Source of the DNA: a virus
Strand: one strand, 5' to 3'
Length of the DNA stretch: 21,158 bases
Virus record (IMG/VR): IMGVR_UViG_3300032223_000084
Coordinates: 1 to 21,158 of that record
Part shown: one piece after another, positions 3,347 through 18,952 of the stretch
How the letters are laid out: the number at the start of each line of letters is the position of its first letter
How positions within the stretch are numbered: position 1 is the first letter of the stretch
Notes under the pieces: generated by a model
The model's input: the letters and a program-made list of their open reading frames with translations, nothing else
The model's database searches: none
Told to the model about the DNA's origin: nothing
Translations under genes and position numbers: made by a program

Positions 3347-6300
3347 ATGAGTCTCCAACTAGCAGCACAACATTTAGCCCAGCACGGTCGCGGTGACGAC
3401 AAGATGCTTGTTCACATGACCCCTAAAGAAGTTAGCGGTCTACAACAGCTTGCCCAGATGCATGGGGGATCATTAACTCGTAACCCACATACTGGCCTTC
3501 CAGAAGCTGGGTTTTTAGATAGCTTGATGCCTACTATTATTGGTGCAGCGGCTATGTATTTTACGGGCGGTGCAGCGGCTCCTTTAATTGAAGGTTTGAG
3601 TAATGCCGCAGTTATTGGCGGTGGTGTCGGTCTTGCTGAAGCTGCACGTACTGGTAGTTTAAGCAAAGGTTTAATGGCTGGGCTTGGCGCTTATGGTGGC
3701 GCTGGATTGGCTGGCGGCATGATGGCTGGTGCTGGACAACAATTGGCAGGTGAAAGTCTAGCAGCAGAAGCTGCAAATAATCCTGATCTAGTATCATCAG
3801 TTAAACCTTTGTCTGCGGCTGATTATGCTAGAACAGCTTCAGCACAAGATATTGCTGCTGCTACAAAAAATGTATCAGGTTTTGATTTAGCGAAAGCAGG
3901 TTTTAGAAATTTAACAAACGAAGGTGGATTTTCTAATTTAGTAAATAATATGGGTGGAGGAATGAGTTTAGCTAAAACAGGTTTAGCTGCTATGTCTCCA
4001 ATAATAGCTGACCAAATGGTTCAAACCACTACAGCTCTTCCAACATCAAAAAGCGCTATACATCCGTTTATGTATGATCCAGGTGGCGGATATACAAGAT
4101 TAAATTCAATTTCTCCAGCGGAAAACTTTAAGGGGTTTGCTACTGGCGGTATTGCTGATGATAATTCACAAAGCATGTTTAACTATGCGCATATGCAACC
4201 TGCGGTAGATATGCATTCCGGTATTGGAGCAATACCTCAAAACATGGCTCGTGGTGGCGTTGCACATTTTGATGACGGTGGGAATATTAATTCAGACTAC
4301 ACACCCCAACAAATTGCCGACTATATTTCACAAAATAATTTATCTGGTGATTCTCTTGCCGCCGCTGAACAACAGTTTGGCGTTACTCCTGAACAAGTTT
4401 CATACGCACAAGCACAAGCTGCACCGCAATCACTTCCGCCTGATGTAGTTCAAATAGATCCTAGTGCAGTTAATAATCAACCAACTCCACAGCCTACGCC
4501 AGATCGTATGTACTATACTGATGATTCAGGTAACTATAATGATTCTTCCGGTAATTTTATTGATGTTAGTAATACCCCCGGGCCTAACAATATCGTGGGT
4601 GGTGGCGAAGGTTTTAAGGCCCCTGCTTCCATTGATGCAGCTTTAGCAGCATATCAAGCGGGTGATTATGGTCAAGCAGCCCAATTGCTCGGAGCTTCTG
4701 GTATGTCTGCGCAAGATGTTGTTAGTAAGTATGGTTTAAGCGCGGCTGATGCAGCTAATGTGGCCCAAAATCTTGGGTATACAGGAGACATGAGTAATAT
4801 AAATTACTATACTCCTCCTCCTGCAGCTGCCACAACAACGGGGGATAGCCCAGAAATAAACACAACCCCTCGCGCAGATTTAGCTCCTGCCGTAGCCGCA
4901 GATGCCCCCACATACACTAACTATACCCCTGACCAAATTGCACAGTATGTGCAGACAAGCGGCATTAATTTAAATGACCCAGCAGCTATTGCAGCCGCTG
5001 AAAAACAAACTAATATTGATCCTGCGGCTTATAACGCATGGTTTGCTTCAAATGCAAACCCATTTTCAGCGGCGGCTTTAACTAATCCAGCAAATGCAAC
5101 TGCGGCAAATGTAAGCGCTTTTGATGCGACTTTAGGCACTGCACCCGCAAATATGGGCATCAACAATGCAATTGCTACTGCATATAAAAATACAGGCGCT
5201 ACTGAAAATCTTGCTGGTAACATACAAGGTAATACCCAGCTTGCCAAAGAGATGGATACGTGGAACGTACCACCTGCTCAAATGGCAAAAACAACAGGGT
5301 ATACCGAAGCAGAAATCCAAGCGCTTTATGACGCCGTTGATCCTCATGGTAAGTTTGCATCTGCGGTTACTAAAACAGTTACTCCAGCACCAGCATCAAC
5401 ACTTTCTGGTATGGGAACAACAACTACACCCAACGGAACAGTATTAAATACATACACAGCACCTGGATCAACAACGCCTATCATACTTAATCCTGTCAAC
5501 CGCACAACTGAGAATGTAAACACACCAACTGATATTGCTACTGCGCCTGCTGGTGCTTTGGCTTCTGGTGTTGGCGGTAATAACGCAACCGTTAATCCTA
5601 ATGGAACAATTAGTCAACACCCTAATATCCCCGGTATACCTGTTGGTGGGTTTACTGGTGTAAGTTCATTAACTAATGCATATACTGCAGGCGGTGGGCA
5701 TACTGGCCCTACTAATTTGTATGTACCTAAAACTGTAGAAGAACTTAACGCTAAATATCCAGTAAGTGGTGGCTCTAAACAAATGCTTGATTATCTGTCT
5801 GGTAAAACTACAGAGAACCCAATATTGCACCCATACACACCTACAGGTCAAATTAGTAAAGACTATGCGTCATCTGTGGCAGGCTATCCTGAAAAAGATA
5901 CTTCGCAAAGAATGTATACATTTGATACTGCAACTAAAAAATATATTAGGAATCCTGATTTTATTCCACATAATTTTGATCCTAAAACAGGCGAAAAAGT
6001 TTATGGTAAATCCTTAAATCAAATTAGAGGGGATATGAATACTTTGAAAAATGATTCTGATTGGTTAAATTACATGAATACCAATAATATTCAACCGCAA
6101 CAAATTGCTGATGCAACTGGAGTATCGTTGGGTGAAGTTCTTCAGCATATCCAAACTGCAAAAGCAGGTAGTGGAGTTGGTACTACTTCTGGTAGTGGGG
6201 TTGGTGCTACTTCTGGATCAGCAACTAATTTACCCGGAGGGGTTACAGGGACTCCGTTAGCTGCATACCCTGGATATTACATGGCCAATGGTAAATATTA

Positions 6301-6718
6301 TGATAGTAAAGGTAACTTAGTTGCTAATAACGATAATGAACTTCAAAGCATATTAAACCCAGTAGTCGGCGCAAATGGTGGCATTATGCATGCTGCTATG
6401 GGCGGCGCAATGTACTCTTCTGGTGGTATTGGGGACCTTGGTAGCTATTCTGATGGCGGACGTTTACTGCGTGGCCCAGGTGATGGCGTTTCTGATTCAA
6501 TTCCTGCTACCATTGGTCAAGGAAGACCTGCCCGTCTAGCTGATGGCGAGTTTGTTGTACCCGCACGTATTGTGTCTGAGCTTGGCAATGGCTCAACAGA
6601 AGCTGGTGCTAGAAAACTCTATGCAATGATGGATCGAGTACAAAATACTCGTGGAAAAACAATTGGTAAAGGTAAGGTTGCTACCAACACCCGTGCCGAT
6701 AAATTCTTACCCGCATAA
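3347..6718 (+). CDS. Giant virion protein with hydrophobic N-terminal core and degenerate helical repeats (putative ejection protein)
   Basis: An 1123-residue protein with no catalytic motif that I recognise. The N-terminus has MLVHMTPKEVSGLQQLA (20-36) and GGSLTRNPHTGLPEAGF (40-56), which resemble proteins common in environmental phages. A Gly/Ala-rich hydrophobic region follows (about 57-135) that could insert in a membrane. Gly-Gly motifs occur near 265 and 299-311 (ARGGVAHFDDGG). From about 318 to 945 there are degenerate alpha-helical units, e.g. TPQQIADYISQNN, TPDQIAQYVQTSG and NNIQPQQIADATGVSLGEV, separated by Thr/Pro/Asn-rich linkers. The C-terminus (about 1009-1123) is a conserved-looking block with several GG motifs and LADGEFVVPA (1064-1073). 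GGGGA precedes the start at good spacing. Size, composition and position before two other giant proteins suggest an internal or ejection protein. A tail-fibre or tape-measure-like role cannot be excluded. Confidence 0.6.
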   Translation: MSLQLAAQHLAQHGRGDDKMLVHMTPKEVSGLQQLAQMHGGSLTRNPHTGLPEAGFLDSLMPTIIGAAAMYFTGGAAAPLIEGLSNAAVIGGGVGLAEAARTGSLSKGLMAGLGAYGGAGLAGGMMAGAGQQLAGESLAAEAANNPDLVSSVKPLSAADYARTASAQDIAAATKNVSGFDLAKAGFRNLTNEGGFSNLVNNMGGGMSLAKTGLAAMSPIIADQMVQTTTALPTSKSAIHPFMYDPGGGYTRLNSISPAENFKGFATGGIADDNSQSMFNYAHMQPAVDMHSGIGAIPQNMARGGVAHFDDGGNINSDYTPQQIADYISQNNLSGDSLAAAEQQFGVTPEQVSYAQAQAAPQSLPPDVVQIDPSAVNNQPTPQPTPDRMYYTDDSGNYNDSSGNFIDVSNTPGPNNIVGGGEGFKAPASIDAALAAYQAGDYGQAAQLLGASGMSAQDVVSKYGLSAADAANVAQNLGYTGDMSNINYYTPPPAAATTTGDSPEINTTPRADLAPAVAADAPTYTNYTPDQIAQYVQTSGINLNDPAAIAAAEKQTNIDPAAYNAWFASNANPFSAAALTNPANATAANVSAFDATLGTAPANMGINNAIATAYKNTGATENLAGNIQGNTQLAKEMDTWNVPPAQMAKTTGYTEAEIQALYDAVDPHGKFASAVTKTVTPAPASTLSGMGTTTTPNGTVLNTYTAPGSTTPIILNPVNRTTENVNTPTDIATAPAGALASGVGGNNATVNPNGTISQHPNIPGIPVGGFTGVSSLTNAYTAGGGHTGPTNLYVPKTVEELNAKYPVSGGSKQMLDYLSGKTTENPILHPYTPTGQISKDYASSVAGYPEKDTSQRMYTFDTATKKYIRNPDFIPHNFDPKTGEKVYGKSLNQIRGDMNTLKNDSDWLNYMNTNNIQPQQIADATGVSLGEVLQHIQTAKAGSGVGTTSGSGVGATSGSATNLPGGVTGTPLAAYPGYYMANGKYYDSKGNLVANNDNELQSILNPVVGANGGIMHAAMGGAMYSSGGIGDLGSYSDGGRLLRGPGDGVSDSIPATIGQGRPARLADGEFVVPARIVSELGNGSTEAGARKLYAMMDRVQNTRGKTIGKGKVATNTRADKFLPA
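6167..6214 (+). repeat. 24-bp in-frame tandem duplication
   Basis: Two adjacent 24-base copies (6167-6190 and 6191-6214) differ at two positions, both A to G. Each encodes an eight-residue Gly/Ser/Thr/Val unit (GSGVGTTS, then GSGVGATS) in a linker of the 1123-residue virion protein. Because the unit is a multiple of three, copy-number change would keep the frame. Confidence 0.85.
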
Positions 6719-6727
6719 GGAATCAAA

Positions 6728-9436
6728 ATGGCTGATCCAACAACAACGCAAAATATAAACTATGGTTTTGCACCAGAAGCTGCTCCTTATGCACAAGACG
6801 TATTGGGGCAAGCGCAAGCCTTAACTGATATTAATGCAAATCCGTATCAGCAGTACCAAGGCGATACGCTTGCTCAATTTACACCACTACAGAATTTGGC
6901 GTATGGTAATGCAGCCACGATGTCATCTGCGCCTCAGTTGCAAGATGCGTCTGCGCTAGCTGGGCAAGCGGGTCTTGGCGCGTTGAATACTGGGTATACA
7001 TATAACCCGTACCAGACCCAAAGCTTTACAAGTCCCGGTATGGCGCAGTCGTATATGAACCCTTATTTGGATGTTCAAAACAATGCTGCTTATAGAAATT
7101 CTCAAATTCAAAATGCACAAAATAATGCACAAGCTACTACGGCGGGTGCATTTGGTGGTGGTCGTCAAGCCATTATGGGCGCGCAAAACAATGCCGACTT
7201 GCAGCGCAACTTAGCTAAAAATCAATTTGATGCCTATAATTTAGGCCAACAACAATTTAATGTTGAGCAAGGACAAGCACAAAATGCAGCTCAACTTAAT
7301 GCCCAACAAGGGCAGTTTGGTGCTGGACTAGGGCTTCAAGGCCTTCAAACAGCCAATCAAGCGGCTACTAATTTGGCCAACATTGGTAACACCCAGTACC
7401 AACAAAACATGGGCATTAATCAGTTGCAGAACCAATATGGCGGTCAACAGCAACAGCAAGTCCAGAACGGCTTGAACCAACAGCAACAACAGTTCTTGAA
7501 CTATCAGAACTACCCATATCAACAATTGAACTTCATGCAGAACATGATCCGTGGCTTGCCCATGACAAATCAAACTGCATCTGTGTATCAGTCTCCAGGA
7601 AGCATGCTAGGCCAAGTAGCAGGTTTAGGTATTGGTGCTGCCGCCGCTTTGAATAAGAAAGAAGGCGGTTCTATTAGTAGCTTTAAAGAAGGCGGCTACA
7701 TAAAAAAGTATTCGGGCGAAGATGATGAGTCGCTAGTTCGTCTTAGCCCATTTGCTATGAAACAACTTATGGGCGACGCAACTACTATGTCAGGTACAGG
7801 CTTAAATGCTAATGCGGATTTACATGAAGCTGGTAGATTAAGTGGTGGTGTAAATCTTAATCGCATGGATAAAGGCATGGACAGTCGCCAAATGCAAAAC
7901 TTAATGGCTAACTACATGAACAATATTGGTGATGTAGGAATTAATGCTAATGTAAGTAGACCTCTGGAGAGAAATTTACCTGCTGATTTTTATCAAGAGA
8001 ATTTAATGGGTTCAGTTCCAGTTGGCGAAGGAAGACTAAGTGCTGGTATACATGGCACACATGTAGGCGGCGAACACCATAAAAACGCTCATTCATTGGC
8101 TTATAACACACCTTTTCACGGTGGGCATTTAAGTGCAAACATTATTAAACCTATAGAAGGCAAGCCATCTTATGGAGTGCAATACAACAGATCATTTAGT
8201 GGGGGTGGTGATATAACTGATCCATCCGAAGGTAAGCTACATCATATGATGAGTGATTTGTCTGATGGGCAACTACAACTAATCTTACAACACCCTACTT
8301 CTATGGCTGAGTTGCAATCTGCTCAATTAGAAATGTCTTCTAGGCATCAGGGCATGAGAGAAGGTGGGGCAGTTGCATTTGCAGTTGGTGGAAGTAATGA
8401 TGATCCGATGGGTACTGGGGCTATGGATATAACATCCGTCTCAAATGCAACAGCACAACCTTTTTGGAAACAACTTTTTAATGCTCCCGTGCCCCCTGCA
8501 TGGAAACAAAAACTTGAACAAGAATCAGACACTGCTAGAAAAGCAAGAGAGGACATGTCTGATTATGTGCCAAGGAGCAATGCCAATCCAGCTGCTGTTA
8601 AAGAAGCTTTTAAAAAGCCTGAAATTAAAAGTGGTATAAGCGATTTAGTTAAAAAGCCACCATCATTAGGCGAAGCGCGTAAAGCTGCTGAGAGCATGGG
8701 TGTTAAAACTGAGGATTTTGATTCTATTTACAAGAGAGTATTAGGTGATTTAAGTAGTGGTAATGCTGACATCATCAAGAGTATTAAAGAATTAACCGCA
8801 GAACAGGTAGGTGAAGCTAAAAATATCAAAGCTGAAGGTGACCGCAAAGCGATGATGAACTTTGGATTTAATCTAGCCGCTGAAGCTTCCCGTCCTGGTC
8901 AACCTGGTAATCAAGGTTTTGCTGGATTGTTGCGTAGTGCTGCTGCGGCTTCTCCATCGTATGCTGCTTCATTAGCTGACACAGAAAAAATGGCACGCGA
9001 GTCACAGCGTCTAGCTAATCAAATGCAGATCGAAATGACCAAGTATCAAGTTGCTCTTGATAAGGGTGATAAATCTGCGGCGGTTCAAGCATCGCACAAT
9101 ATAATGAATAATAAGATTCAACAGCAGCAAGTAAATAATGCCTATGAGCATGGCAAAGCTATGGAAAAACTAGAAGGTCAAAAGATTGGCATGATGGGTC
9201 AACGCTATGCTGCTATGCAAGGAAATCACCAAGTTAAACTTGGTGATTTCCGATTAAAATCAGAAATACAAGCACAGCGTGCATATGAGAATGAGCTTAA
9301 AAATAATCCTATGCTTCCTAGCCAATTAAAAGCACAAGGTATAACTCCAGAACAATATAAAAAACAACGCGCAGATGATATTCATGGAAATATATTACAA
9401 AGTATGGCTAGTAATCCTTTCCCACTAGAGGAATAA
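6728..9436 (+). CDS. Giant Q/N-rich virion protein with beta-barrel-like segment (putative DNA ejection protein)
   Basis: A 902-residue protein. Residues about 1-290 are Gln/Asn/Ala-rich and helical, with the recurrent phage motif AGAFGGGRQAI (about 139-149) and poly-Gln runs near 236-265. A short hydrophobic Gly/Ala segment (about 292-307) is followed by GG motifs (KKEGGSISSFKEGGY, 308-322). Residues about 358-494 contain short alternating strands (LSGGVNLNRMD, VGINANVSRPL, GRLSAGIHGTHV, GHLSANIIKPI, YGVQYNRSF), like an outer-membrane or beta-sheet repeat domain. More GG motifs follow, then a charged helical/coiled-coil C-terminal half (about 590-902). The start has AAGGA directly after the preceding stop, and the stop is one base from the next start. 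It resembles proteins of environmental phages that I associate with the ejectosome. No enzyme motif was seen. The role is inferred. Confidence 0.6.
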   Translation: MADPTTTQNINYGFAPEAAPYAQDVLGQAQALTDINANPYQQYQGDTLAQFTPLQNLAYGNAATMSSAPQLQDASALAGQAGLGALNTGYTYNPYQTQSFTSPGMAQSYMNPYLDVQNNAAYRNSQIQNAQNNAQATTAGAFGGGRQAIMGAQNNADLQRNLAKNQFDAYNLGQQQFNVEQGQAQNAAQLNAQQGQFGAGLGLQGLQTANQAATNLANIGNTQYQQNMGINQLQNQYGGQQQQQVQNGLNQQQQQFLNYQNYPYQQLNFMQNMIRGLPMTNQTASVYQSPGSMLGQVAGLGIGAAAALNKKEGGSISSFKEGGYIKKYSGEDDESLVRLSPFAMKQLMGDATTMSGTGLNANADLHEAGRLSGGVNLNRMDKGMDSRQMQNLMANYMNNIGDVGINANVSRPLERNLPADFYQENLMGSVPVGEGRLSAGIHGTHVGGEHHKNAHSLAYNTPFHGGHLSANIIKPIEGKPSYGVQYNRSFSGGGDITDPSEGKLHHMMSDLSDGQLQLILQHPTSMAELQSAQLEMSSRHQGMREGGAVAFAVGGSNDDPMGTGAMDITSVSNATAQPFWKQLFNAPVPPAWKQKLEQESDTARKAREDMSDYVPRSNANPAAVKEAFKKPEIKSGISDLVKKPPSLGEARKAAESMGVKTEDFDSIYKRVLGDLSSGNADIIKSIKELTAEQVGEAKNIKAEGDRKAMMNFGFNLAAEASRPGQPGNQGFAGLLRSAAAASPSYAASLADTEKMARESQRLANQMQIEMTKYQVALDKGDKSAAVQASHNIMNNKIQQQQVNNAYEHGKAMEKLEGQKIGMMGQRYAAMQGNHQVKLGDFRLKSEIQAQRAYENELKNNPMLPSQLKAQGITPEQYKKQRADDIHGNILQSMASNPFPLEE
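7438..7527 (+). repeat. CAA/CAG-rich poly-glutamine tract
   Basis: The stretch is dominated by CAA and CAG codons and encodes two separate runs of five glutamines (QQQQQ twice) plus further Gln/Asn/Tyr. It is low-complexity coding DNA in the N-terminal helical region of the 902-residue virion protein. CAA and CAG are mixed, so it is not a pure microsatellite. Confidence 0.7.
9221..9251. repeat. Perfect 31-base inverted repeat inside coding sequence
   Basis: The left arm GGAAATCACCAAGTT (9221-9235) and right arm AACTTGGTGATTTCC (9237-9251) are exact reverse complements around a single central A at 9236. As RNA this would fold into a stem of about 13-14 pairs with a tiny loop. It lies in frame within the 902-residue virion gene, about 190 bases before its stop, and encodes GNHQVKLGDF. 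There is no following U-tract, so it is not a standard terminator. Confidence 0.9.
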
Positions 9437-9437
9437 A

Positions 9438-12400
9438 ATGGCTCTATACAAGATTCAAGGGCCTGACGGAAAACGTTATGGTTTTGAAGCGCCTGCGGGC
9501 CTATCAGACTATGATGTTAATTTATTAAAAAATAAATTTTTTGCTCCTCCCGAAGCTGCCCCTGCGCCTCCTCCTGAACCTAAACCTGAGACAGGATTTA
9601 TTCCGTCTGTTAAACGTGGTTATGCTGGGCTTGAGTCTTTAATAGGCGATGTTCTACCTGCTATGGCAGCTCATGCCGTAGGCGCGGATGAATATGCTAA
9701 AAAGCAAATGAAAGAAGCTGCAGCTTCCCAAGAAGAAATTGCTAAAAAATATCCTGCTGAAGTTCCCTCATACAAAAATGTTAAAGATGTTGGAACTGGC
9801 TTCAAATATATCGTGGAGTCAGTTGGCGAAGCTATTCCGTCTATTCTTCCTAGCTTGTTTACAGGTGGCGCAGCAAGCATTATTGGACGTGGGGCAATTG
9901 CAGCGGCTAAAGAAGCGGCTGAAAAAGTTGTATTAGAAAAAAGCGCTGGTGTAGCCACTAAAGATTTGCTTGCAGAAGCTACTGCCGCTGGGGTAAAAGC
10001 CGCGCAAAATAGTGCGTTAAAACACGAAGCTATTGGCGCATTGGCTGGTTCTGCGGCGCAAAATATACCTGACGTATATCAGAATATTTACGAGAAAACA
10101 GGCAAGCAAGACCTTGGCGCGGCCTTAGCGTTCGGTGGATTTAACTCTGTCCTTGACGCCATCACGCCATTTAATGTGATGCGCAAAATAAAGCTGACTG
10201 GAATACCAGAAGAGCAAATTGCTGCGGCTTGGTATAAGCGTGCAGGCAAAGGCGTGTTGGAGGGGCTCGCCACAGAAGGTGGTACAGAAACGTTACAAGA
10301 GATATCCAGTGCCGCCGCTGAAAGACTTGTGGCCCAGCATGGAGACTTTTTTACCAAAGAAAACTTTGAGCGGTTTATCAATGCTGGACTTAAAGGTGGT
10401 ATAGGTGGTGGTGTAATTACGGGCGCTACAAACGTAGCATTTGGCAAAGGGCCTGAAGCTAAGAATGCTCCCCCCGCTGCAGAAGGAGCGACACCATCAC
10501 AACAAGTATTAGATCAATTAGCAACTCAACAAGCGGCAGGAACTACATCTACAGAACCAACGCCCGCAACAGTACCTCAAGCTGAAGCGCCTATAGGGGC
10601 AACACCAGGATTTAAAATATTAGAACAAGAGATGGCCAAAATTACATCTCCTGATAAAGTACCCACGCTTCCACCGCAAGAGTCTGATACTGATAAACTT
10701 AAAGCATATGTTGAGCAACAGAAAGCTGAGTTAGCTAATGGCGTTAGTAGTCAAGGTAAACCATTAAATCCATTTGCTAAAAAGAAAAAAGAAGAAAAGA
10801 TTGCTAAACTAGAAGCTAAATTAACGGAGACACCCAATGCTGAACCTGTCACCCCAACAACTGGAACAAGCGTTCCAGTACCTAGCGGACCCGATACAAA
10901 CGTGGCCCCTGCCACAGGAACTGAAGGAAATCAATTACCAGGAGTGGTTCCTGCTGGAGAGAATGTTCCAAGCGTTGTTGCAAGAGAAGCAGAGCAACAA
11001 GCTCCAGTAGGAGAAGCTAGAGAAATAATTAAAGAACAAGCTCCAATAACGGACAAATCATATTTAACGTCAGAAAAAGGTATATCAGACTATATAGCGT
11101 ATATTGATAAACGAGATGAGCTTTTTAAACAGATGGATGCATTGGGCGAAGAAAGCTCGGTTCTATTAGACAAAATAACTGATTTAGATAGTATCCGCGC
11201 AGCGAACGTTTTAGACGACAATGGCAAACCGTTAATTTTTGATGAAAACGGTAAATTTGATACAGACAAACACGACAAAGCTAAAGAAGATTTAAAAGCC
11301 AAGCGTAAAGAGGTTGACGCTAAATATGATGCTGTTATTAAACAGCTTGATGAACTTGACGCTGCCAGAGAAGCAGCAAAAAAAACTAAAGGAGAACCTA
11401 GTGTCACTGAGACCACTAAAACCAAGCAAGCAGAAGAAGAAAAACAAACAGCCCCAACCCCAGAACCTGTAACACATACTGAAGATCAGATTGATGATTA
11501 CAATGCAGCGGCAGAGTATCACAATGAGCAGAAGGGTAACGAAGAACGCCAACTGCCTACCTATGATAAGCTGACTCCAGAGCAAAAAACTTCTTACTTT
11601 TCTACCAACCCAACCAATGGCGAAGAGTACGATGAAGCGGCTAATAAATTAGCTAAAGAAATACATGGCAAGCGCAAACCAAAGGAGGCGCCGATACCTC
11701 CTGATGTTAGTGATATGCAGGCCGTTATTCAACGCATCCGTACTGCATCTGACAACCCATTACACAGAGCACTCGCTACCCTATTCAATAGTTTAAAGCT
11801 AAATACTAAGCTAAAGTTTGTTAATTCTTTGCCTAATGGCAGAGTAGCTGAATACAACCCAGATAACGATACTGTCTATGTCACTAAAAAAGGTATGGAT
11901 GAAACAGTGATGTTACATGAGTTAACTCATGCGGCTACAGTCAAATCTATTTACGATTATTTAAACGAAAAGATTCAAGACGAGACAAGAGGCGATGCAA
12001 TGGTGCATCTTGAGTTTTTGATGGAGCAGTCAAGACAAGACTTAGGCACTAAGTTTCCAGAGGCTTACGAAGACTTATATGAGTTTATAGCCCATGCCAT
12101 CACAGACGCTGAGTTTCAAAAGGCGTTGGAAGCCACGCCAATCACCAAAGAAAATTCTATATTTAATAGGAACACAAATGCGTTTACTGACTTCATCAGG
12201 TCTATCTTTCAATTCTTAGGTTTACTCAACGACAAATCTAATTTCAAAGCAGAAGCATTCAAGGCCCTTGAAGATATTGTCAGTGCGCCTCCAAAGAGTG
12301 GTGTGCCAGTAGGCCAGACACTTGGGTTTACAAAAACTCAAACAACCAAGCAAGCACCCACTGCACCCCAAACAGATAAGGAAATAATAGAGTCTGCGCT

Positions 12401-15400
12401 TAATCAAGTTAGACCAATGGTTCAGACCAGAAATGTTAGGTCAAGTATCAGAGGTTTATTTACTAAGCAAGGCGCGCAGTGGATGGTTGAGCGGTTCCAG
12501 AATGACCGCTATCCTTTAAAGCTGGCTGAAGACAGAGGAGTTCTATTCAACGTTATAGAACGCATGGGCGATAAAGTTAACAATGTATATGGTCAGATAA
12601 CTCGTTCATCGGGTATGGCCGTTGATTTGTTTAATAGGCACATGAAGTTTCCTGTACAATATGCCAATGATGCCGTTAAAAGATATGCAGATAAACGTGG
12701 TATTGATGTCAAAGAGGCTTTGGCTGAACTGCATTTGATATTAGAAACAAGGCATGAGCCAGAGCGCCGCGCAGTGCTATTCATGCTTAACGTACCGCTT
12801 GATGAAGTAAATCAAATACTAGAATTCCACGGCAAAAATTATTCTGCCTACGGTTTTAGGGATGAAGTTTTACGTCTATTAGGCAACCCCACTGAGTTGG
12901 AGAAGTTAGGGAATACCCCTTTACAACTGCGGGCGATGATGGACAAGATCATCCATAGTGTGCAGAACGATGTAAACTCACCGTTCAGGGCCAAGAGGCA
13001 AGAAGTAATTAAAAAGCGTGGTGAGCCCGAATACAAAGAAGTTGACCCCAAAGTCTTCAATATTAACGATCCCTCGTACAACGTGATTGCTAATAGAACA
13101 CCACATGAAGTTAATGTAATTAGACAAAAATTAGATACGGCTGAAAACAAAGCCGAGATCGATGATGTCGCCAAAAAAATCAAAGCAGTACATGAACAAA
13201 CTAAATTCCTCAATAAGATGGCTAACTACCAGTCTAAGCCAGTATCGAATGTTATTGAATTCTATGACTTCGGCCACTACGTTCCCTTCAAAGGACGCCC
13301 AAATGCTGTTACGCAAGCTGCTGAAGAATTAGACTTTGATTCACAAAAGCTAGGCGGTGAGATGCAAGAAGGCCAAGACCGCATGGAAGGCCGCTTGTCT
13401 GAGTCTGAGAACGCAGTACTACAATCCCTTGCTGATGGAGCATCTGCCGCTATGCGTGCAGGACGCAAAGACTTAACGCTGTCCATTAAGAATGCTATTG
13501 AAAAAGGCATAGCAATTCTCCAAGGAAGACCTGTAGTTACAATTAATTTTGATGACCGATTCCGTGGTATCGTAGATAAACAATCTATTGTTGGCCAAAA
13601 TAAAATATTCCATTACAACGAAGATGGAACTATTAACGTTATTGAGATTACTGATAAGCGCCAAAGCGAAGCTATACGCCGTTCATACAGGGAAAGCCAA
13701 CCTATTATGGATGCTATTAATAGTTTAACAAGTGGCATAGGTCAAACCCATACTCGCTACAACCCTGCTTTTGCGCCAATGAACTTTGTGCGTGATGCGC
13801 TTACCAATGCATTTACGATTGGCGCTGAGTTAGGCCCAGCTCGTGCAGGTAGCCTACTTACTTTTATAGCGACTGAAGTGGCTAGCGGTGGCTTGGCTAA
13901 ATCATTGAGATTCTCAAGACTTTATGCAGATGGTAAGTTCAATGAGATCAAAGCACTTGCTGGCGGTGATAAGTCCTATAATAGTCTTAACGGCTCAGAG
14001 CGTTATTATCGTGACCTCAGTAGTTATGTAACGCAAGGTGGTAAAGTCTCGTATCTACAAGGCGTAGCTGCTAAAGGCGCGCTAGACCAGCTAATTAAAG
14101 AAGTTGGTCGTTCTGGCATTTTGCAAAAGAAAGATCAAGTAGATAAGTTCATCGATATCTATAATGACATGTTTGAATTGTCTAGCCGCGTGGCATCTTA
14201 TCGGTTCTTGAAAGAAGAGATTACCAAAGACAATATCAAGAAAGGTATGGACACCGCTAAAGCCGAGGCTGATGCAGATATACAAGCCGTTGAATACGCC
14301 AAGAATTTAGCCAACTTTGAACAGGTGGGTCGTTGGGGTAAAAACGCTGGCGCTTTGTTTATGTTCTTTAGGCCCGCAGCTACAGGTGCTGTACGTGCTA
14401 TTGAAGCATTAGCTCCTGCTTTCTCACGCATTAATGAAGCAGAGTTTAGGGCTAATGAAAAAGAACGTGGCATGTCTGAGAAACAGATAGATGAGGCTTT
14501 GGCTACATTGAAAGCTCGTCAGCAACATGCTCGTGTTATGGCTGCGGCTTTAACAGGTGTTGGTGTAAGTATGTTCTTGATGGCATCTATGATGTCAGGA
14601 GATGATGACCAGGGGCGTAATAAAGTTTTGAGTGACGATATGTCTAGATGGACTCGTTACGCTAGGTTCCCAATCCCAGGTACAGATATTATTTTGCAGA
14701 TTCCTTGGGGCTTTGGTTTAGGTTCATTTGCAGCGGCTGGGGCACAGATTGCTTCTATGTTTGCTGGGCGCACCTCTATGGCTGATGGGCTGTCTAATAT
14801 TGTTACGATTGGCCTTGACTCATTTTTGCCTATCCCAGTATCTAGGATTAGCCCTGTGGATAACTTCCCTGCATGGGCTATGGATTCTGTAACACCCTCG
14901 CCATTGCGCCCATTCTTTGAATATGTGATGAATATGGATGGCCTAGGTAGGGAGATCTATAACAATCGCCAAACAAAATATGGCGACGCATTTACAGGCG
15001 GCGACAATATACCTGAACTGTACAAGTACGCAGCCCGTGAGCTATTCAATGCAACCAACGGCGCTGTGGACTGGAGCCCAAATACAATATACTTCTTTGC
15101 TAGCAACTATGTAGATGGTATGGCAAAGGCATTAACAGGGACTGTAAACCTAGGCTTAACAGTCACAGGACAAAAAGACTTTGACTTAAAGAACGATACA
15201 TTGTTTTTAAACAGTTTCTTTGGGTCTAAATCCAATGTGGACGCGCGGGAGTTTAGCAAGGTAGAGAATCAAATTAAAGGCATAGAAAAGCGCGTCAATG
15301 CGCTCAAAGACAAGCCCGAACAATTTGAACAATACATGAATGAGAACCCAACAGATTACTATCTTGTGCAGTTCTACAATCAGCAGATCAATGGTTCTTT

Positions 15401-15557
15401 AAAGACACTCAGGACCCAGGCTAATCAAATCCGCGTCAACAAAGATATGAACATTAGAGAGCGCAAAGAACGGCTTGATGAAATAATTAAGATGGAAAAT
15501 TTAGTCAAGAGGCAACTTTTGAATAACTTTGAATCTATTTCAAATATTAAACCCTAA
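9438..15557 (+). CDS. Giant 2039-residue virion protein with HELTH metallopeptidase-like motif and LPD38-like C-terminus
   Basis: Probable internal or ejection protein. The first 35 residues (YKIQGPDGKRYGFEAPAG) form a small module seen at the start of many phage proteins. Hydrophobic Gly/Ala stretches lie near 131-160 and 318-336. A Pro/Thr/Glu-rich, partly coiled-coil linker runs from about 340 to 720. A metallopeptidase-like motif HELTH is at 827-831, with Glu882 in YEFIAHA as a possible third zinc ligand. The C-terminal third resembles the large polyvalent protein domain LPD38: NPAFAPMNFVRD (about 1442-1453), GRWGKNAGALFMFFRPA near 1630, a membrane-like segment at about 1699-1720, a Gly/Ala-rich one at 1755-1777, and SPNTIYFFASNYVDG further on. 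AGAGGA precedes the start. The gene ends convergently, overlapping the opposite-strand gene by four bases. A peptidase role in virion maturation or host-wall penetration is inferred; LPD38 is assigned from memory. Confidence 0.65.
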   Translation: MALYKIQGPDGKRYGFEAPAGLSDYDVNLLKNKFFAPPEAAPAPPPEPKPETGFIPSVKRGYAGLESLIGDVLPAMAAHAVGADEYAKKQMKEAAASQEEIAKKYPAEVPSYKNVKDVGTGFKYIVESVGEAIPSILPSLFTGGAASIIGRGAIAAAKEAAEKVVLEKSAGVATKDLLAEATAAGVKAAQNSALKHEAIGALAGSAAQNIPDVYQNIYEKTGKQDLGAALAFGGFNSVLDAITPFNVMRKIKLTGIPEEQIAAAWYKRAGKGVLEGLATEGGTETLQEISSAAAERLVAQHGDFFTKENFERFINAGLKGGIGGGVITGATNVAFGKGPEAKNAPPAAEGATPSQQVLDQLATQQAAGTTSTEPTPATVPQAEAPIGATPGFKILEQEMAKITSPDKVPTLPPQESDTDKLKAYVEQQKAELANGVSSQGKPLNPFAKKKKEEKIAKLEAKLTETPNAEPVTPTTGTSVPVPSGPDTNVAPATGTEGNQLPGVVPAGENVPSVVAREAEQQAPVGEAREIIKEQAPITDKSYLTSEKGISDYIAYIDKRDELFKQMDALGEESSVLLDKITDLDSIRAANVLDDNGKPLIFDENGKFDTDKHDKAKEDLKAKRKEVDAKYDAVIKQLDELDAAREAAKKTKGEPSVTETTKTKQAEEEKQTAPTPEPVTHTEDQIDDYNAAAEYHNEQKGNEERQLPTYDKLTPEQKTSYFSTNPTNGEEYDEAANKLAKEIHGKRKPKEAPIPPDVSDMQAVIQRIRTASDNPLHRALATLFNSLKLNTKLKFVNSLPNGRVAEYNPDNDTVYVTKKGMDETVMLHELTHAATVKSIYDYLNEKIQDETRGDAMVHLEFLMEQSRQDLGTKFPEAYEDLYEFIAHAITDAEFQKALEATPITKENSIFNRNTNAFTDFIRSIFQFLGLLNDKSNFKAEAFKALEDIVSAPPKSGVPVGQTLGFTKTQTTKQAPTAPQTDKEIIESALNQVRPMVQTRNVRSSIRGLFTKQGAQWMVERFQNDRYPLKLAEDRGVLFNVIERMGDKVNNVYGQITRSSGMAVDLFNRHMKFPVQYANDAVKRYADKRGIDVKEALAELHLILETRHEPERRAVLFMLNVPLDEVNQILEFHGKNYSAYGFRDEVLRLLGNPTELEKLGNTPLQLRAMMDKIIHSVQNDVNSPFRAKRQEVIKKRGEPEYKEVDPKVFNINDPSYNVIANRTPHEVNVIRQKLDTAENKAEIDDVAKKIKAVHEQTKFLNKMANYQSKPVSNVIEFYDFGHYVPFKGRPNAVTQAAEELDFDSQKLGGEMQEGQDRMEGRLSESENAVLQSLADGASAAMRAGRKDLTLSIKNAIEKGIAILQGRPVVTINFDDRFRGIVDKQSIVGQNKIFHYNEDGTINVIEITDKRQSEAIRRSYRESQPIMDAINSLTSGIGQTHTRYNPAFAPMNFVRDALTNAFTIGAELGPARAGSLLTFIATEVASGGLAKSLRFSRLYADGKFNEIKALAGGDKSYNSLNGSERYYRDLSSYVTQGGKVSYLQGVAAKGALDQLIKEVGRSGILQKKDQVDKFIDIYNDMFELSSRVASYRFLKEEITKDNIKKGMDTAKAEADADIQAVEYAKNLANFEQVGRWGKNAGALFMFFRPAATGAVRAIEALAPAFSRINEAEFRANEKERGMSEKQIDEALATLKARQQHARVMAAALTGVGVSMFLMASMMSGDDDQGRNKVLSDDMSRWTRYARFPIPGTDIILQIPWGFGLGSFAAAGAQIASMFAGRTSMADGLSNIVTIGLDSFLPIPVSRISPVDNFPAWAMDSVTPSPLRPFFEYVMNMDGLGREIYNNRQTKYGDAFTGGDNIPELYKYAARELFNATNGAVDWSPNTIYFFASNYVDGMAKALTGTVNLGLTVTGQKDFDLKNDTLFLNSFFGSKSNVDAREFSKVENQIKGIEKRVNALKDKPEQFEQYMNENPTDYYLVQFYNQQINGSLKTLRTQANQIRVNKDMNIRERKERLDEIIKMENLVKRQLLNNFESISNIKP
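10860..10879. repeat. 8-bp inverted repeat with 4-nt loop
   Basis: ACTGGAAC (10860-10867) and GTTCCAGT (10872-10879) are exact reverse complements around AAGC. The hairpin lies in the Pro/Thr-rich linker of the 2039-residue gene and has no U-tract. It is probably incidental. Confidence 0.5.
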
Positions 15558-15775
15558 CTAACTCTCCATGCCCTAACACCGAGAATATGCTTCTCGGTTG
15601 TAGTGAAACATCGGCATTTAATGCCAGATTGTTTTGCCGTGGTATCAATCACATAGGCCATGTATGCAGGGCGCATCGTTGGTATAAAGAAGCTGTCCCC
15701 TACATCCATGCCTGTGTATGGAAATATCCAAGTCGGTTCGTCAAGCGGTTGCGATTCCGTCAGTCTCTTTTTCAT
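15554..15775 (-). CDS. Small phage protein of unknown function, end of replication operon
   Basis: A 73-residue protein beginning MKKRLTESQPLDEP. It contains GMDVGDSFFIP (22-32), RPAYMAYVI (35-43), SGIKCRCFTTTE (50-61) and a terminal GVRAWRVS. The pattern VGDSFF-IP, then a Gly-Ile-Lys strand, then an Arg-rich WRV end recurs in small phage proteins with a compact alpha/beta or DNA-binding-like look. I do not know its function. I chose this Met because the sequence from here looks like a complete small-protein start. An in-frame ATG at 15820 would add 15 residues, and neither start has a good ribosome-binding site. The gene overlaps the end of the primase-helicase by 35 bases (80 if the upstream start is used), suggesting coupled translation. 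Its stop overlaps the convergent virion gene. Confidence 0.65.
   Translation of the reverse strand: MKKRLTESQPLDEPTWIFPYTGMDVGDSFFIPTMRPAYMAYVIDTTAKQSGIKCRCFTTTEKHILGVRAWRVS
15578..15598. terminator. Candidate bidirectional hairpin at the convergent junction
   Basis: ACCGAGAA (15578-15585) and TTCTCGGT (15591-15598) form a perfect 8-bp stem around a five-base loop. The hairpin begins 21 bases past the stop of the rightward virion operon and lies within the last codons of the leftward 73-residue gene. Neither side has a run of Ts, so it is at best a weak or factor-assisted terminator. Its position, where both transcription units must end, is the main argument. Confidence 0.4.
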
Positions 15776-18581
15776 TGAATAAGTAGGATATGTCCATCTC
15801 GATCTTATAGGCTTGCACATTGTGCGAACCTACGGCATCCCGCCAACCAGCGGCCATCTGCTTCTTGAACTTACCCTTGAGTATGCCTGACTGCTCTAAG
15901 CGCATCTCAAACTCCTTGGGGCCTAGCTTGATATCACGCAAGTAGTCTTTCATGGCAGAAGACGATATCCAAATCAAACCCTCTTCAACTTCAGCACGAA
16001 TGTATAGCGCATTGCGTGGCTCAGTAGATACCTTGCCATCCTTGATAACAAGGATATTGGCAATGTTCTTATTGATGAAGTCTCCAAGTATATCGGTACG
16101 GTTGTCTAGGTCGTCTCGCGCCTTACCATTGATGATATTGATAAAGTCTTGGCCTACCACAGAGAAGATTCTGTCTAGATCAAAAGCAAATAGTGCTAGA
16201 TCATTGCCAATCTCACCGCTCTTACGGGACACTGCCAACAGATTAGCAAGGAATCGATACTCACTATTCTTTGTATACTCCTCTCCGATGCGCAGATACA
16301 TCTTGTCAATAGAACTCTTGACTTCAGGAGTGCCTCGTCTAAACAATTCTTTAACAAAGATAGGTCCAGCATGGCCATAGTGTGTTTTGAATACATCAAA
16401 CATTACTTTACCGCGTTCTGCAGTTAGCTCGTATCCGGCAACATCAGGCATCTTCAAGTATGGTTCAAGCAAGCGCACATTCTCTGCGTTGGTGTTGGAC
16501 TTGAATATTGCCATGATATCTTTCATGGGCGTGTTGGTAGTGATAACACCGATCTGCTTGGTATTGAACGATGCTTCGCGCTCCTCATTGGTAGAAGCTT
16601 TCAATCTGATCTTGGGCTGACCTGATGAAATGTTATAGATCAAATGCGACATGAACTTACCATCTGCGTTTGACTGTTCATCTAATGGGAACGGAATGTT
16701 CTTTAGAGTGATCATGCGCTGAATCAATGCGTTCTGCGTACCATCAAACACGGCTAGTGCATCGGGCTTGCCCCATATACTACTCATGCCCAACATAGCG
16801 CCAGTCTTACCGCATCCTGGGGGCCCAGCCAATGAGAGTGTGACTCCATTAACGTTTGTTAACTCCATGAGTATCGAACCAAACCCACAAAGCAAAGTAA
16901 ATGCGTGCCACTCATAGCCTGGGTCATTAAACATCTGAACGGCTTCTTTCCATGATTGGAAACTGCCACTCGCATGTAAATGCTTAACAACGTTCTTTGA
17001 CATTGGTGATGTAGGTGCATGGCGTATTGATCCATCAGCCATATACTCATCGTTTCCAATTACAAATGATTCTAAATTTTCTGTCCATCCTTGTTGAATT
17101 CTCATGACATCTGCTCTCTTAGTTGAGGTTAAATAAGTTGACCACTTTACTAAATAGCTCTGCACTTTGGATATGCTTGTTGGCTCAAAGGTGACGCTAT
17201 TGTTCAGTAGTATTGTTTTCAGTTTCTCTTGTGATCCTACATCCTTTAAAGGTAGGAAATATTCTTTCACTCCTTCAAGGGGTAATTCAACATTCATAAC
17301 CAAGCACTCACCATCGTGAGGGGAATATAAACGTTGCACAGGGTAAGTTGCAAAGGGTAATAATAGTTCGTCTGGGTCTTGTACCATTCCTTTCTTTGTC
17401 GATCTTAGGGCGGGAGTATAGTATACGCCCCCAGTTGCTCCCTTGGAAAATGGTTTTAGGAAGTCAGGGAATACTACCCTTTTTCCTTCCACTTGCCTAG
17501 GTGCGTCCTCTTCGGTGCTATCTTGTTCGGTCGGTTCCAATTCTTCTGGGATTCTGAGAACTTCTCCAAGTTTGATAGGCCCTGATATCTTGCCTCTGTA
17601 TGGGCATCCCTCACATCCCGCTCTATTGGCTCGTTCAAATGCTTCACAGCCATGAGACCACTCAGCGGCGGTAAGGGATTGCGCTGACTTGCTACTTGTA
17701 TTGTTGGCATCATATCGCGGGTCGTGTTCTGACATTGTATGTATGGCAGTATCGCCATCACGACACCTGCTGGCGACAGATATTCCAGCGTACCACAATG
17801 GCTCCTCGCAACCAACTTCGGTGAGTAATTTCTTAATTTGTTCACAACCTGTTCCTTCCAAACTTTTTGTAGCTATCGTTGCAAAGTCGTATTCAAAGTT
17901 ACTTCTCCTTGCTTCATAAATAGCTTTGGTATCGTCATCTAAGCCTTTCTCAACATTCTTCAAATCAAACTTGGGCGCAATGCTACCCAAGGCGTGCGCT
18001 AGGCTTTCAAATGGGTGAGTCTGTACATCAGTCAATAAGTCTGATGGCATGGGTGGGTCGTATCTATAGTTAGATGTCCCTGGGATTCTCATCAACCGTG
18101 CCGCGTCAGCGGGTACGGCTTCATCAATCACCATCTTGTGGTCTAAGCATAACTGCTTAAACTGTTTTGCATACCCTTTCCATTCTTCTCCTGCAATCTC
18201 CTCGTCAAATATCCAGTAAGCATGTATCCCGCCACCTGAATCTATGACTACGGGTAAAGGCCAGTTAATTTCTGTACAGAATCTATCAATATCGGTTAGC
18301 GCGGCTTCCTTGCTATCGTATTTAGCTTTTCCGTGCATGACATCTAAGTCAAGAAAAAATGCCTTTACAAACACACATGTGTCGGCAGTACGTCTGAGTC
18401 CAGAATAAGTTCCTGGTGTGAAGTAAACATTAATATTTGCATCTATGAACTTCTGCGCTATAGCAAGCGCTTTATCCATGTCTGTTTCAAATCTTGGTGT
18501 TATCTTTCCATCTTTATCTATTCCAGCAATGCACACATACCCCTGCGTTGGGAAAATTTTCTCAAAAAATTGTTTGTTCAT
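15741..18581 (-). CDS. AEP-type primase fused to P-loop helicase
   Basis: A 946-residue replication protein that would lay primers and unwind DNA at the fork. The N-terminus matches archaeo-eukaryotic primases: FFLDLDV with Asp78 and Asp80, SGGGIHAYW (115-123), Asp153, and RIPGTSNY (165-172). Cys312, Cys323 and Cys326 form a partial zinc cluster in CEAFERANRAGCEGCPYRG, a linker common in phage primases. The C-terminal half has Walker A GPPGCGKT (586-593), Walker B-like FPLDE with Asp634/Glu635, and a probable sensor segment GVITTNTP, resembling the DUF927-type helicase superfamily. Length fits a bifunctional primase-helicase. A terminator-like hairpin sits just upstream, and the start has no strong ribosome-binding site, so expression may be controlled separately from the preceding genes. 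The activities are inferred from motifs, which are intact. Confidence 0.85.
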   Translation of the reverse strand: MNKQFFEKIFPTQGYVCIAGIDKDGKITPRFETDMDKALAIAQKFIDANINVYFTPGTYSGLRRTADTCVFVKAFFLDLDVMHGKAKYDSKEAALTDIDRFCTEINWPLPVVIDSGGGIHAYWIFDEEIAGEEWKGYAKQFKQLCLDHKMVIDEAVPADAARLMRIPGTSNYRYDPPMPSDLLTDVQTHPFESLAHALGSIAPKFDLKNVEKGLDDDTKAIYEARRSNFEYDFATIATKSLEGTGCEQIKKLLTEVGCEEPLWYAGISVASRCRDGDTAIHTMSEHDPRYDANNTSSKSAQSLTAAEWSHGCEAFERANRAGCEGCPYRGKISGPIKLGEVLRIPEELEPTEQDSTEEDAPRQVEGKRVVFPDFLKPFSKGATGGVYYTPALRSTKKGMVQDPDELLLPFATYPVQRLYSPHDGECLVMNVELPLEGVKEYFLPLKDVGSQEKLKTILLNNSVTFEPTSISKVQSYLVKWSTYLTSTKRADVMRIQQGWTENLESFVIGNDEYMADGSIRHAPTSPMSKNVVKHLHASGSFQSWKEAVQMFNDPGYEWHAFTLLCGFGSILMELTNVNGVTLSLAGPPGCGKTGAMLGMSSIWGKPDALAVFDGTQNALIQRMITLKNIPFPLDEQSNADGKFMSHLIYNISSGQPKIRLKASTNEEREASFNTKQIGVITTNTPMKDIMAIFKSNTNAENVRLLEPYLKMPDVAGYELTAERGKVMFDVFKTHYGHAGPIFVKELFRRGTPEVKSSIDKMYLRIGEEYTKNSEYRFLANLLAVSRKSGEIGNDLALFAFDLDRIFSVVGQDFINIINGKARDDLDNRTDILGDFINKNIANILVIKDGKVSTEPRNALYIRAEVEEGLIWISSSAMKDYLRDIKLGPKEFEMRLEQSGILKGKFKKQMAAGWRDAVGSHNVQAYKIEMDISYLFNEKETDGIATA

Positions 18582-18593
18582 TTTCGCAGAGAC

Positions 18594-18619
18594 AAAAATA
18601 ACGGGGACACCCCCGCTAT
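18594..18619 (-). terminator. Intrinsic-terminator-like hairpin upstream of primase-helicase
   Basis: On the minus strand ATAGCGGGG pairs with CCCCGTTAT around a GTGT loop. That gives nine pairs including one G-U, with five consecutive G-C pairs, and four further Ts follow immediately. It lies in the 50-base gap between the HTH gene and the primase-helicase, and its T-run ends 12 bases before the primase ATG. On the plus strand there is no following T-tract, so it is directional. It could be a true terminator, an attenuator or an mRNA processing/stability hairpin. Confidence 0.7.
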
Positions 18620-18631
18620 GGTTACAAGTGA

Positions 18632-18952
18632 TTAACCTACTTTAATTGGACGACCAATCATGTCCTTTAAGTAAGCGCGTGCGTCAGCGAGGTTCTTGCA
18701 TGGTAGCAGTCCTCTTTGAAAATCCTCTTCTACAAGTTGAATAAATGTTTCGATCTTCGCGCGTTTTTTGTGACGAATGTGTCCACCCCTAAACCATGTA
18801 TGAATGGTCTGACGAGTTGTATCAAAGACTTGAGCTATATATGATGCGGGGAAGTTTGCTTTGATGCACGTATCAGCTAAGTCAATACCTAACCGATACG
18901 GGCCCACTTCCTTCACAGTATCAACTAAGTCAGTACTGTATGTTCGTGACAT
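18632..18952 (-). CDS. Helix-turn-helix DNA-binding protein (putative regulator)
   Basis: A 106-residue basic protein. Residues 34-54 form a helix-turn-helix: PASYIAQVF as the first helix and TRQTIHTWF as the recognition helix, followed by RGGHIRHKKRAKIE. The arrangement resembles homeodomain-like or XRE-type HTHs. The C-terminal half is a helical region with LVEEDFQRGLLP and a final RAYLKDMIGRPIKVG that may dimerise. The start overlaps the stop of the upstream Cys4 gene by one base (TAATG), so the two are translationally coupled. The only spacer downstream contains the terminator-like hairpin. It may act as a transcriptional regulator of the early operon or as a replication-origin binder. 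Neither role is shown by the sequence, and the specific family is not recognised. Confidence 0.7.
   Translation of the reverse strand: MSRTYSTDLVDTVKEVGPYRLGIDLADTCIKANFPASYIAQVFDTTRQTIHTWFRGGHIRHKKRAKIETFIQLVEEDFQRGLLPCKNLADARAYLKDMIGRPIKVG

Follow-up and report, generated by a model that had tools for sequence, protein, structure and literature searches.

The start of the primase-helicase gene in the 21,158-nucleotide stretch of viral DNA analyzed here (the window) raises the question of why a terminator-like hairpin should stand directly in front of a start codon. The gene encodes a protein of 946 amino acids on the minus strand (15741..18581), with an AEP prim-pol domain and a DUF927 helicase, and has no Shine-Dalgarno (SD) sequence; a gene for an HTH protein of 106 amino acids (18632..18952, minus strand) adjoins the leader upstream. 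On the minus strand the order is HTH stop codon, TCACTTGTAACC, ATAGCGGGG(GTGT)CCCCGTTAT, TTTTGTCTCTGCGAAA and primase ATG. The GC-rich hairpin ATAGCGGGG(GTGT)CCCCGTTAT, here called P2 (18598..18619, minus strand), is identified by folding, a terminator scan and covariation; it lies 12 nt from the HTH stop and has nine pairs, which include five G-C and one G.U, around a GTGT loop. The stem is followed by a run of five Ts (18594..18598, minus strand), matching the U-tract of an intrinsic terminator, whose first T is shared with the last stem pair, and then by the single-strand motif GTCTCTGCGA (18584..18593, minus strand; core CTCTG at 18587-18591), two As and the ATG, with 12 nt between the end of the T-run and the ATG at 18581. 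The motif, defined by alignments, spacing and copy number, occupies the SD position. The initial annotation had described a nine-pair GC-rich hairpin with a T-run ending 12 nt before the ATG on the coding strand, and its coordinates and pairs are as described; it did not include the invariant GTCTCTGCGA, the missing SD or a second hairpin, P1 (GGTTA(ATCACTTG)TAACC; 18620..18637, minus strand), which is predicted by folding and overlaps the HTH stop codon. Elsewhere in the window, very long plus-strand ORFs on the structural side (9438-15557 and 3347-9436; 2039, 1123 and 902 amino acids) run toward the minus-strand replication operon and meet it at about 15.55 kb.

The evidence for the hairpin from this single sequence is modest. 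The minus-strand stem at 18598-18619 is the top-ranked terminator-like site of the region, where the scan gave 21 such sites against 16.9 ± 4.6 in shuffled sequences. The 76-nt leader folds with an energy of -19.8 kcal/mol (z = -2.3); in this folding-energy check, proposed at the outset, 5 of 200 shuffles were equally good, and the result is modest on its own. We take the hairpin as real because its conservation settles what one sequence leaves modest. A search of the minus strand from 18580 to 18950 gave no sigma-70-like site, which agrees with the earlier statement that there is no room for a promoter between hairpin and gene. Searches with Rfam 15 covariance models gave nothing at the gathering threshold in the window and nothing at E ≤ 5 in 18450-18750. 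A third hairpin, in which the T-run would pair with GCGAAAA, was rejected, as this partner is not conserved in relatives.

For comparison we assembled 115 distinct primase upstream regions, with protein identities of 36-100%. Since the relatives were fetched by protein similarity (110 of 115; the other five came from an exact-motif scan), their upstream DNA was not selected. An automatic rule assigned 95 sites to class X (hairpin, mostly a T-run, a CTCTG-like motif and the ATG), 16 to class Y and four to neither; after reassignment by eye of locus L227, which has a loop of 10, to class X and of L235 to class Y, the final numbers are 96, 17 and two. The element-bearing relatives are all metagenomic contigs, and many of the sites are phylogenetically related. 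No relatives of the primase were found in bacterial genomes, and the three matches to the motif there all lack the hairpin and were judged to be chance. The motif is absent from the cultured Pseudomonas phage Rollin and Rhizobium phage RHph_TM27A (22-25% identity). Relatives of the virion proteins are present in cultured phages of Pelagibacter, Roseobacter and Planktothrix, which hints at the phage neighborhood of this group; tblastn did not find the primase in those phage records.

A GC-rich hairpin lies just upstream of the primase ATG at 96 of the 115 distinct sites, or 91 of 110 once the five motif-fetched sites are dropped, at a distance of 12-27 nt from the ATG and with a mean energy of -14.6 kcal/mol. 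A stem of at least 7 bp is found just upstream of 61 of 62 distinct primase starts, compared with 16 of the 247 starts of other ORFs in these loci. The stem alignment contains 78 double-change cells in stem pairs against 19.4 in shuffles, none of 500 of which reached as high a value, and sliding the stem partners reduces this count to 0-4; likewise, 96.9% of stem cells are paired, as against 51-74% with the partners slid. The GC at the base of the stem is nearly invariant. A covariance model built from 62 sites detects a single strong copy in each locus, and likewise in each whole contig; the copy always precedes the primase, and sites left out of the model's building are recovered as well. 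With a single exact or strong copy per contig, a repeated class of promoter or terminator was rejected. Conservation of the stem in related phages had been named as a check by the initial annotation, and these compensatory changes supply it. On this comparative evidence the hairpin is real and, across a large group of water-borne, uncultivated phages, old; it probably serves as a switch that controls the replication of phage DNA.

The sequence downstream of the stem is conserved in its own right. In the closer relatives of the window TTTTTGTCTCTGCG is essentially invariant in the alignment while the stem and loop change. In the wider set the pentamer is CTCTG at 68 of 96 sites, another CTG-containing form at 18 and neither at 10, so that CTG is present near the primase ATG in 86 of 96. 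Of the 94 scored sites, 92 have the pentamer 6-9 nt beyond the stem, and its distance to the ATG is 5-13 nt; L191/L192 have lost it, and a clade with about 10 members carries CTAAG or a similar sequence instead. The 15-mer has at least 119 matches in viral contigs, including prophages, T4-like phages and coding regions, where roughly 80 would be expected by chance on a rough estimate of ours from the size of the collection, not computed by the search tool. The matches in T4-like phages were treated as unrelated because what is conserved there, downstream of the prohead protease gene, is another motif (GCGACTTT with CATACATATAAC). In those T4-like contigs (L281-L360) a terminator hairpin 3' of the prohead protease-like gene is directly followed by TGCGACTTT(A/G)A and CATACATATAAC; the former motif resembles TCTCTGCGA by overlap, and the arrangement is possibly a conserved phage promoter abutting a terminator.

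The leader also shows a consistent relationship with the SD sequence, which we scored with the simple 4-mers AGGA, GGAG, GAGG and AAGG in the SD window. None of the 96 class X primase starts has such a 4-mer, whereas it is present at 12 of 17 class Y starts, and among neighboring genes at 92 of 101 starts of an SSB-like gene and 56 of 92 starts of the HTH gene. In the tree class Y is nested within a larger clade of class X and has lost the element, and the covariance model matches no class Y site. A different hairpin stands in its place, with compensating arm changes seen by eye, together with a promoter-like GTAGTATAAT. In the class Y loci L221, L230, L234, L241, L246, L253, L267 and L270 the last 125 nt before the ATG form a replacement leader, in which TCCC..GGGA surrounds a small hairpin, ACTGTTGAC or a similar conserved sequence follows, and most members have an SD. 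This mirror pattern of SD and element provides our best evidence that the leader may have a role in translation initiation or its control. Primase codons 3-4 show no synonymous change (AAA in 80 of 80, CAA in 79 of 79); we gave this little weight, because the start of the SSB-like gene is under similar constraint, and rejected it as a sign specific to the element. The product of that gene, 275 amino acids long and encoded two positions upstream of the primase, found no named family in Pfam and PHROG searches; that it is SSB-like is our guess from operon position and sequence.

The initial annotation had suggested that the upstream HTH gene hints at a regulated switch between an early regulator and the replication enzyme. 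The gene is indeed a constant part of the operon, with a homologue upstream of the primase in 95 distinct loci, and its model is all-helical, yet XRE/lambda-repressor folds were matched weakly (best E 0.17). The switch is not supported: in L185, L189, L198, L200, L202 and L278 the HTH stop is 116-325 nt away while the element still adjoins the primase ATG, and the stem is not one DNA operator, because its sequence varies too much; an HTH operator was rejected on both counts. P1 is frequent in relatives (mean z of -1.0 over 95, with many below -2) and absent in some clades, and was rejected as an obligatory part. Part of the extra sequence between HTH gene and primase lies inside P1, between GGGGGAAAGC and GAGTACCCC. 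In L198, L200, L202 and L278 this is a large insertion about 60-300 nt before the ATG with borders GGGGGAAAGC ... GAGTACCCC(AC), seemingly in tandem in L202, and it looks like a mobile or expandable structured segment. In L173, L177, L179, L181 and their relatives, another hairpin of the GCCCCCGTAAGGGGC type is found about 3.2 kb upstream of the primase, 25-45 nt before an ORF of about 520 amino acids in the same operon, where there is an SD-like AAGG.

The conservation and spacing of the leader, the compensatory changes in its stem, its attachment to the primase ATG and its anticorrelation with the SD are matters of observation. We propose that the leader is a leaky terminator fused to an SD-free translation-control region, acting at the RNA level as a cis element of the primase-helicase gene, a reading to which we give about an even chance. 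In it the GC-rich hairpin is followed by about 7 nt of T-rich spacer, then by the CTCTG-type motif and finally by an ATG that lacks an SD. The hairpin and U-tract would act as a leaky intrinsic terminator in most genomes, and the primase would be made only from read-through of the upstream operon. On the read-through mRNA, the hairpin and the single-stranded CUCUG would form a start region under regulation, most likely as a translational operator for a phage or host factor. That factor could be a host RNA-binding protein, the primase itself or some other protein of the phage.

How much of this is termination alone can be judged from the T-run. The element has the GC-rich stem, small loop and orientation on the transcribed strand of an intrinsic terminator, with the T-run directly after the stem in the window, and at least four Ts follow the stem at 87 of 96 sites (L227 checked by eye), which bears out the earlier view of the hairpin as terminator-like. 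Because most sites retain these Ts, termination probably does belong to the function; given a textbook U-tract at 87 of 96 sites, simple termination could even be the chief role. The element would then be a leaky intrinsic terminator closing the SSB/HTH operon, whose fixed read-through fraction sets a low primase level, and the conserved downstream bases would be the distal U-tract and the start region only. The GC stem, its mean energy and its rank as the strongest terminator-like site of the region all fit this account, which we nevertheless hold to be unlikely, as GTCTCTGCG is invariant in closer relatives while stem and loop vary, the element tracks the primase ATG and not the end of the HTH gene, and the SD is consistently absent. 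The sites that fail the four-T rule (L154, L160, L161, L162, L164, L183, L200, L201 and L202) include a clade of five in the tree (L160, L161, L162, L164 and L201) with TTATT, TAATT, TAACT or no T-run, which keeps the hairpin and CTCTGCG, with GTCTCTGCG or ACTCTGCG remaining; L161, L162 and L164 thus retain hairpin and motif without a proper T-run. Decay of the T-run beside a persisting hairpin and CTCTGCG means that selection acts on more than termination. An intrinsic terminator or attenuator shares the GC-rich stem, small loop and immediate T-run seen in about 90% of relatives, but the phage element ends 12-27 nt before a start codon to which it is evolutionarily tied, has an invariant downstream motif and is kept in a clade without the T-run.

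The initial annotation had also offered tuning of mRNA processing or translation. The translational half is favored by the CTCTG in the SD position and the missing SD, whereas an element for mRNA processing or stability (such as a 5' hairpin remaining after RNase cleavage), or else a hidden promoter overlapping the hairpin, is in our estimate very unlikely: tandem hairpins do lie between the cistrons, and in clade Y the promoter-like GTAGTATAAT sits between the HTH gene and the clade's own hairpin, but the window has no sigma-70-like site in this gap on the minus strand, the stem sequence varies, and such an element alone would not explain the invariant motif. A role in DNA, as a single-stranded initiation site where the encoded AEP primase recognizes the hairpin and its 3' single strand and starts replication, is quite unlikely but draws on the protein itself. 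The primase-helicase matches Pfam DUF927 (1e-21) and primase PHROGs, and relatives show no variation at the residues that fit the AEP-primase motifs DxD and sxH. An AF2 model of the first 340 residues (pLDDT 91.5) matches the folds of S-2L PrimPol, RepB' and the pRN1 primase, and Foldseek aligns the N-terminal domain with RepB' (3h20, E 5e-8; 3h25, with ssiA DNA, E 3e-5). The single copy per genome, the CTG near the ATG and the nearly invariant GC of the stem base would also suit such a site. Against it, an origin need not sit 5-13 nt from a start codon or replace an SD, and the model search of whole contigs found a single strong match on one strand and no second site on the other. A GC-skew switch across the element, sought as a mark of an origin, was likewise lacking in class X, although this is a weak test. 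A long shot is a dual role in which the primase would recognize the hairpin and CTCTG as single-stranded DNA when initiating replication and as RNA when repressing its own SD-free translation, on top of a transcription-capping terminator.

Known systems offer partial parallels for each role. In phage T4 the replication proteins gp43 and gp32 repress their own mRNAs via leader structures, with the DNA polymerase gp43 acting through a hairpin and ribosome-site sequence (PMC3014915). As in the T4/RB69 gene 43 operator, the phage leader joins a hairpin to a single strand that extends over the ribosome site in the gene of a replication enzyme (PMC3014915), the hairpin lying 12-27 nt and the motif 5-13 nt before the primase ATG. 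However, gp43 binds a hairpin with a conserved loop about 40 nt upstream (PMC3014915), whereas here the loop and stem vary, the 3' single strand is conserved and there is no SD. In RSF1010, ssiA consists of a hairpin of about 21 nt and 13 nt of 3' single strand with a proposed GTG priming triplet (PMC4434180). The ssiA/ssiB and RepB' system resembles the phage arrangement in the hairpin with 3' single strand and in a replicon with a same-fold AEP primase (PMC4434180), a likeness in fold and layout; RSF1010 has one site per strand, while the phage has one that overlaps a translation start. In pRN1, an operon of a repressor and a prim-pol-helicase is coupled to an essential stem-loop (PMC4234260). 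The pairing of a small regulator with a prim-pol-helicase next to a conserved stem-loop is shared, although the pRN1 stem-loop is about 100 nt long and downstream of the gene (PMC4234260).

Taken together, the results describe a single-copy regulatory element at the gene of a replication enzyme. It is deeply conserved across a large group of uncultivated aquatic phages and has no match among curated RNA families. If our reading of a leaky terminator fused to a translation-control region is correct, one short sequence would both end transcription and start translation without an SD, and would give a direct handle on the timing of DNA replication in these phages. If the element should instead be a primase-recognition site, it would extend the RepB'/ssi logic of plasmids to tailed phages.
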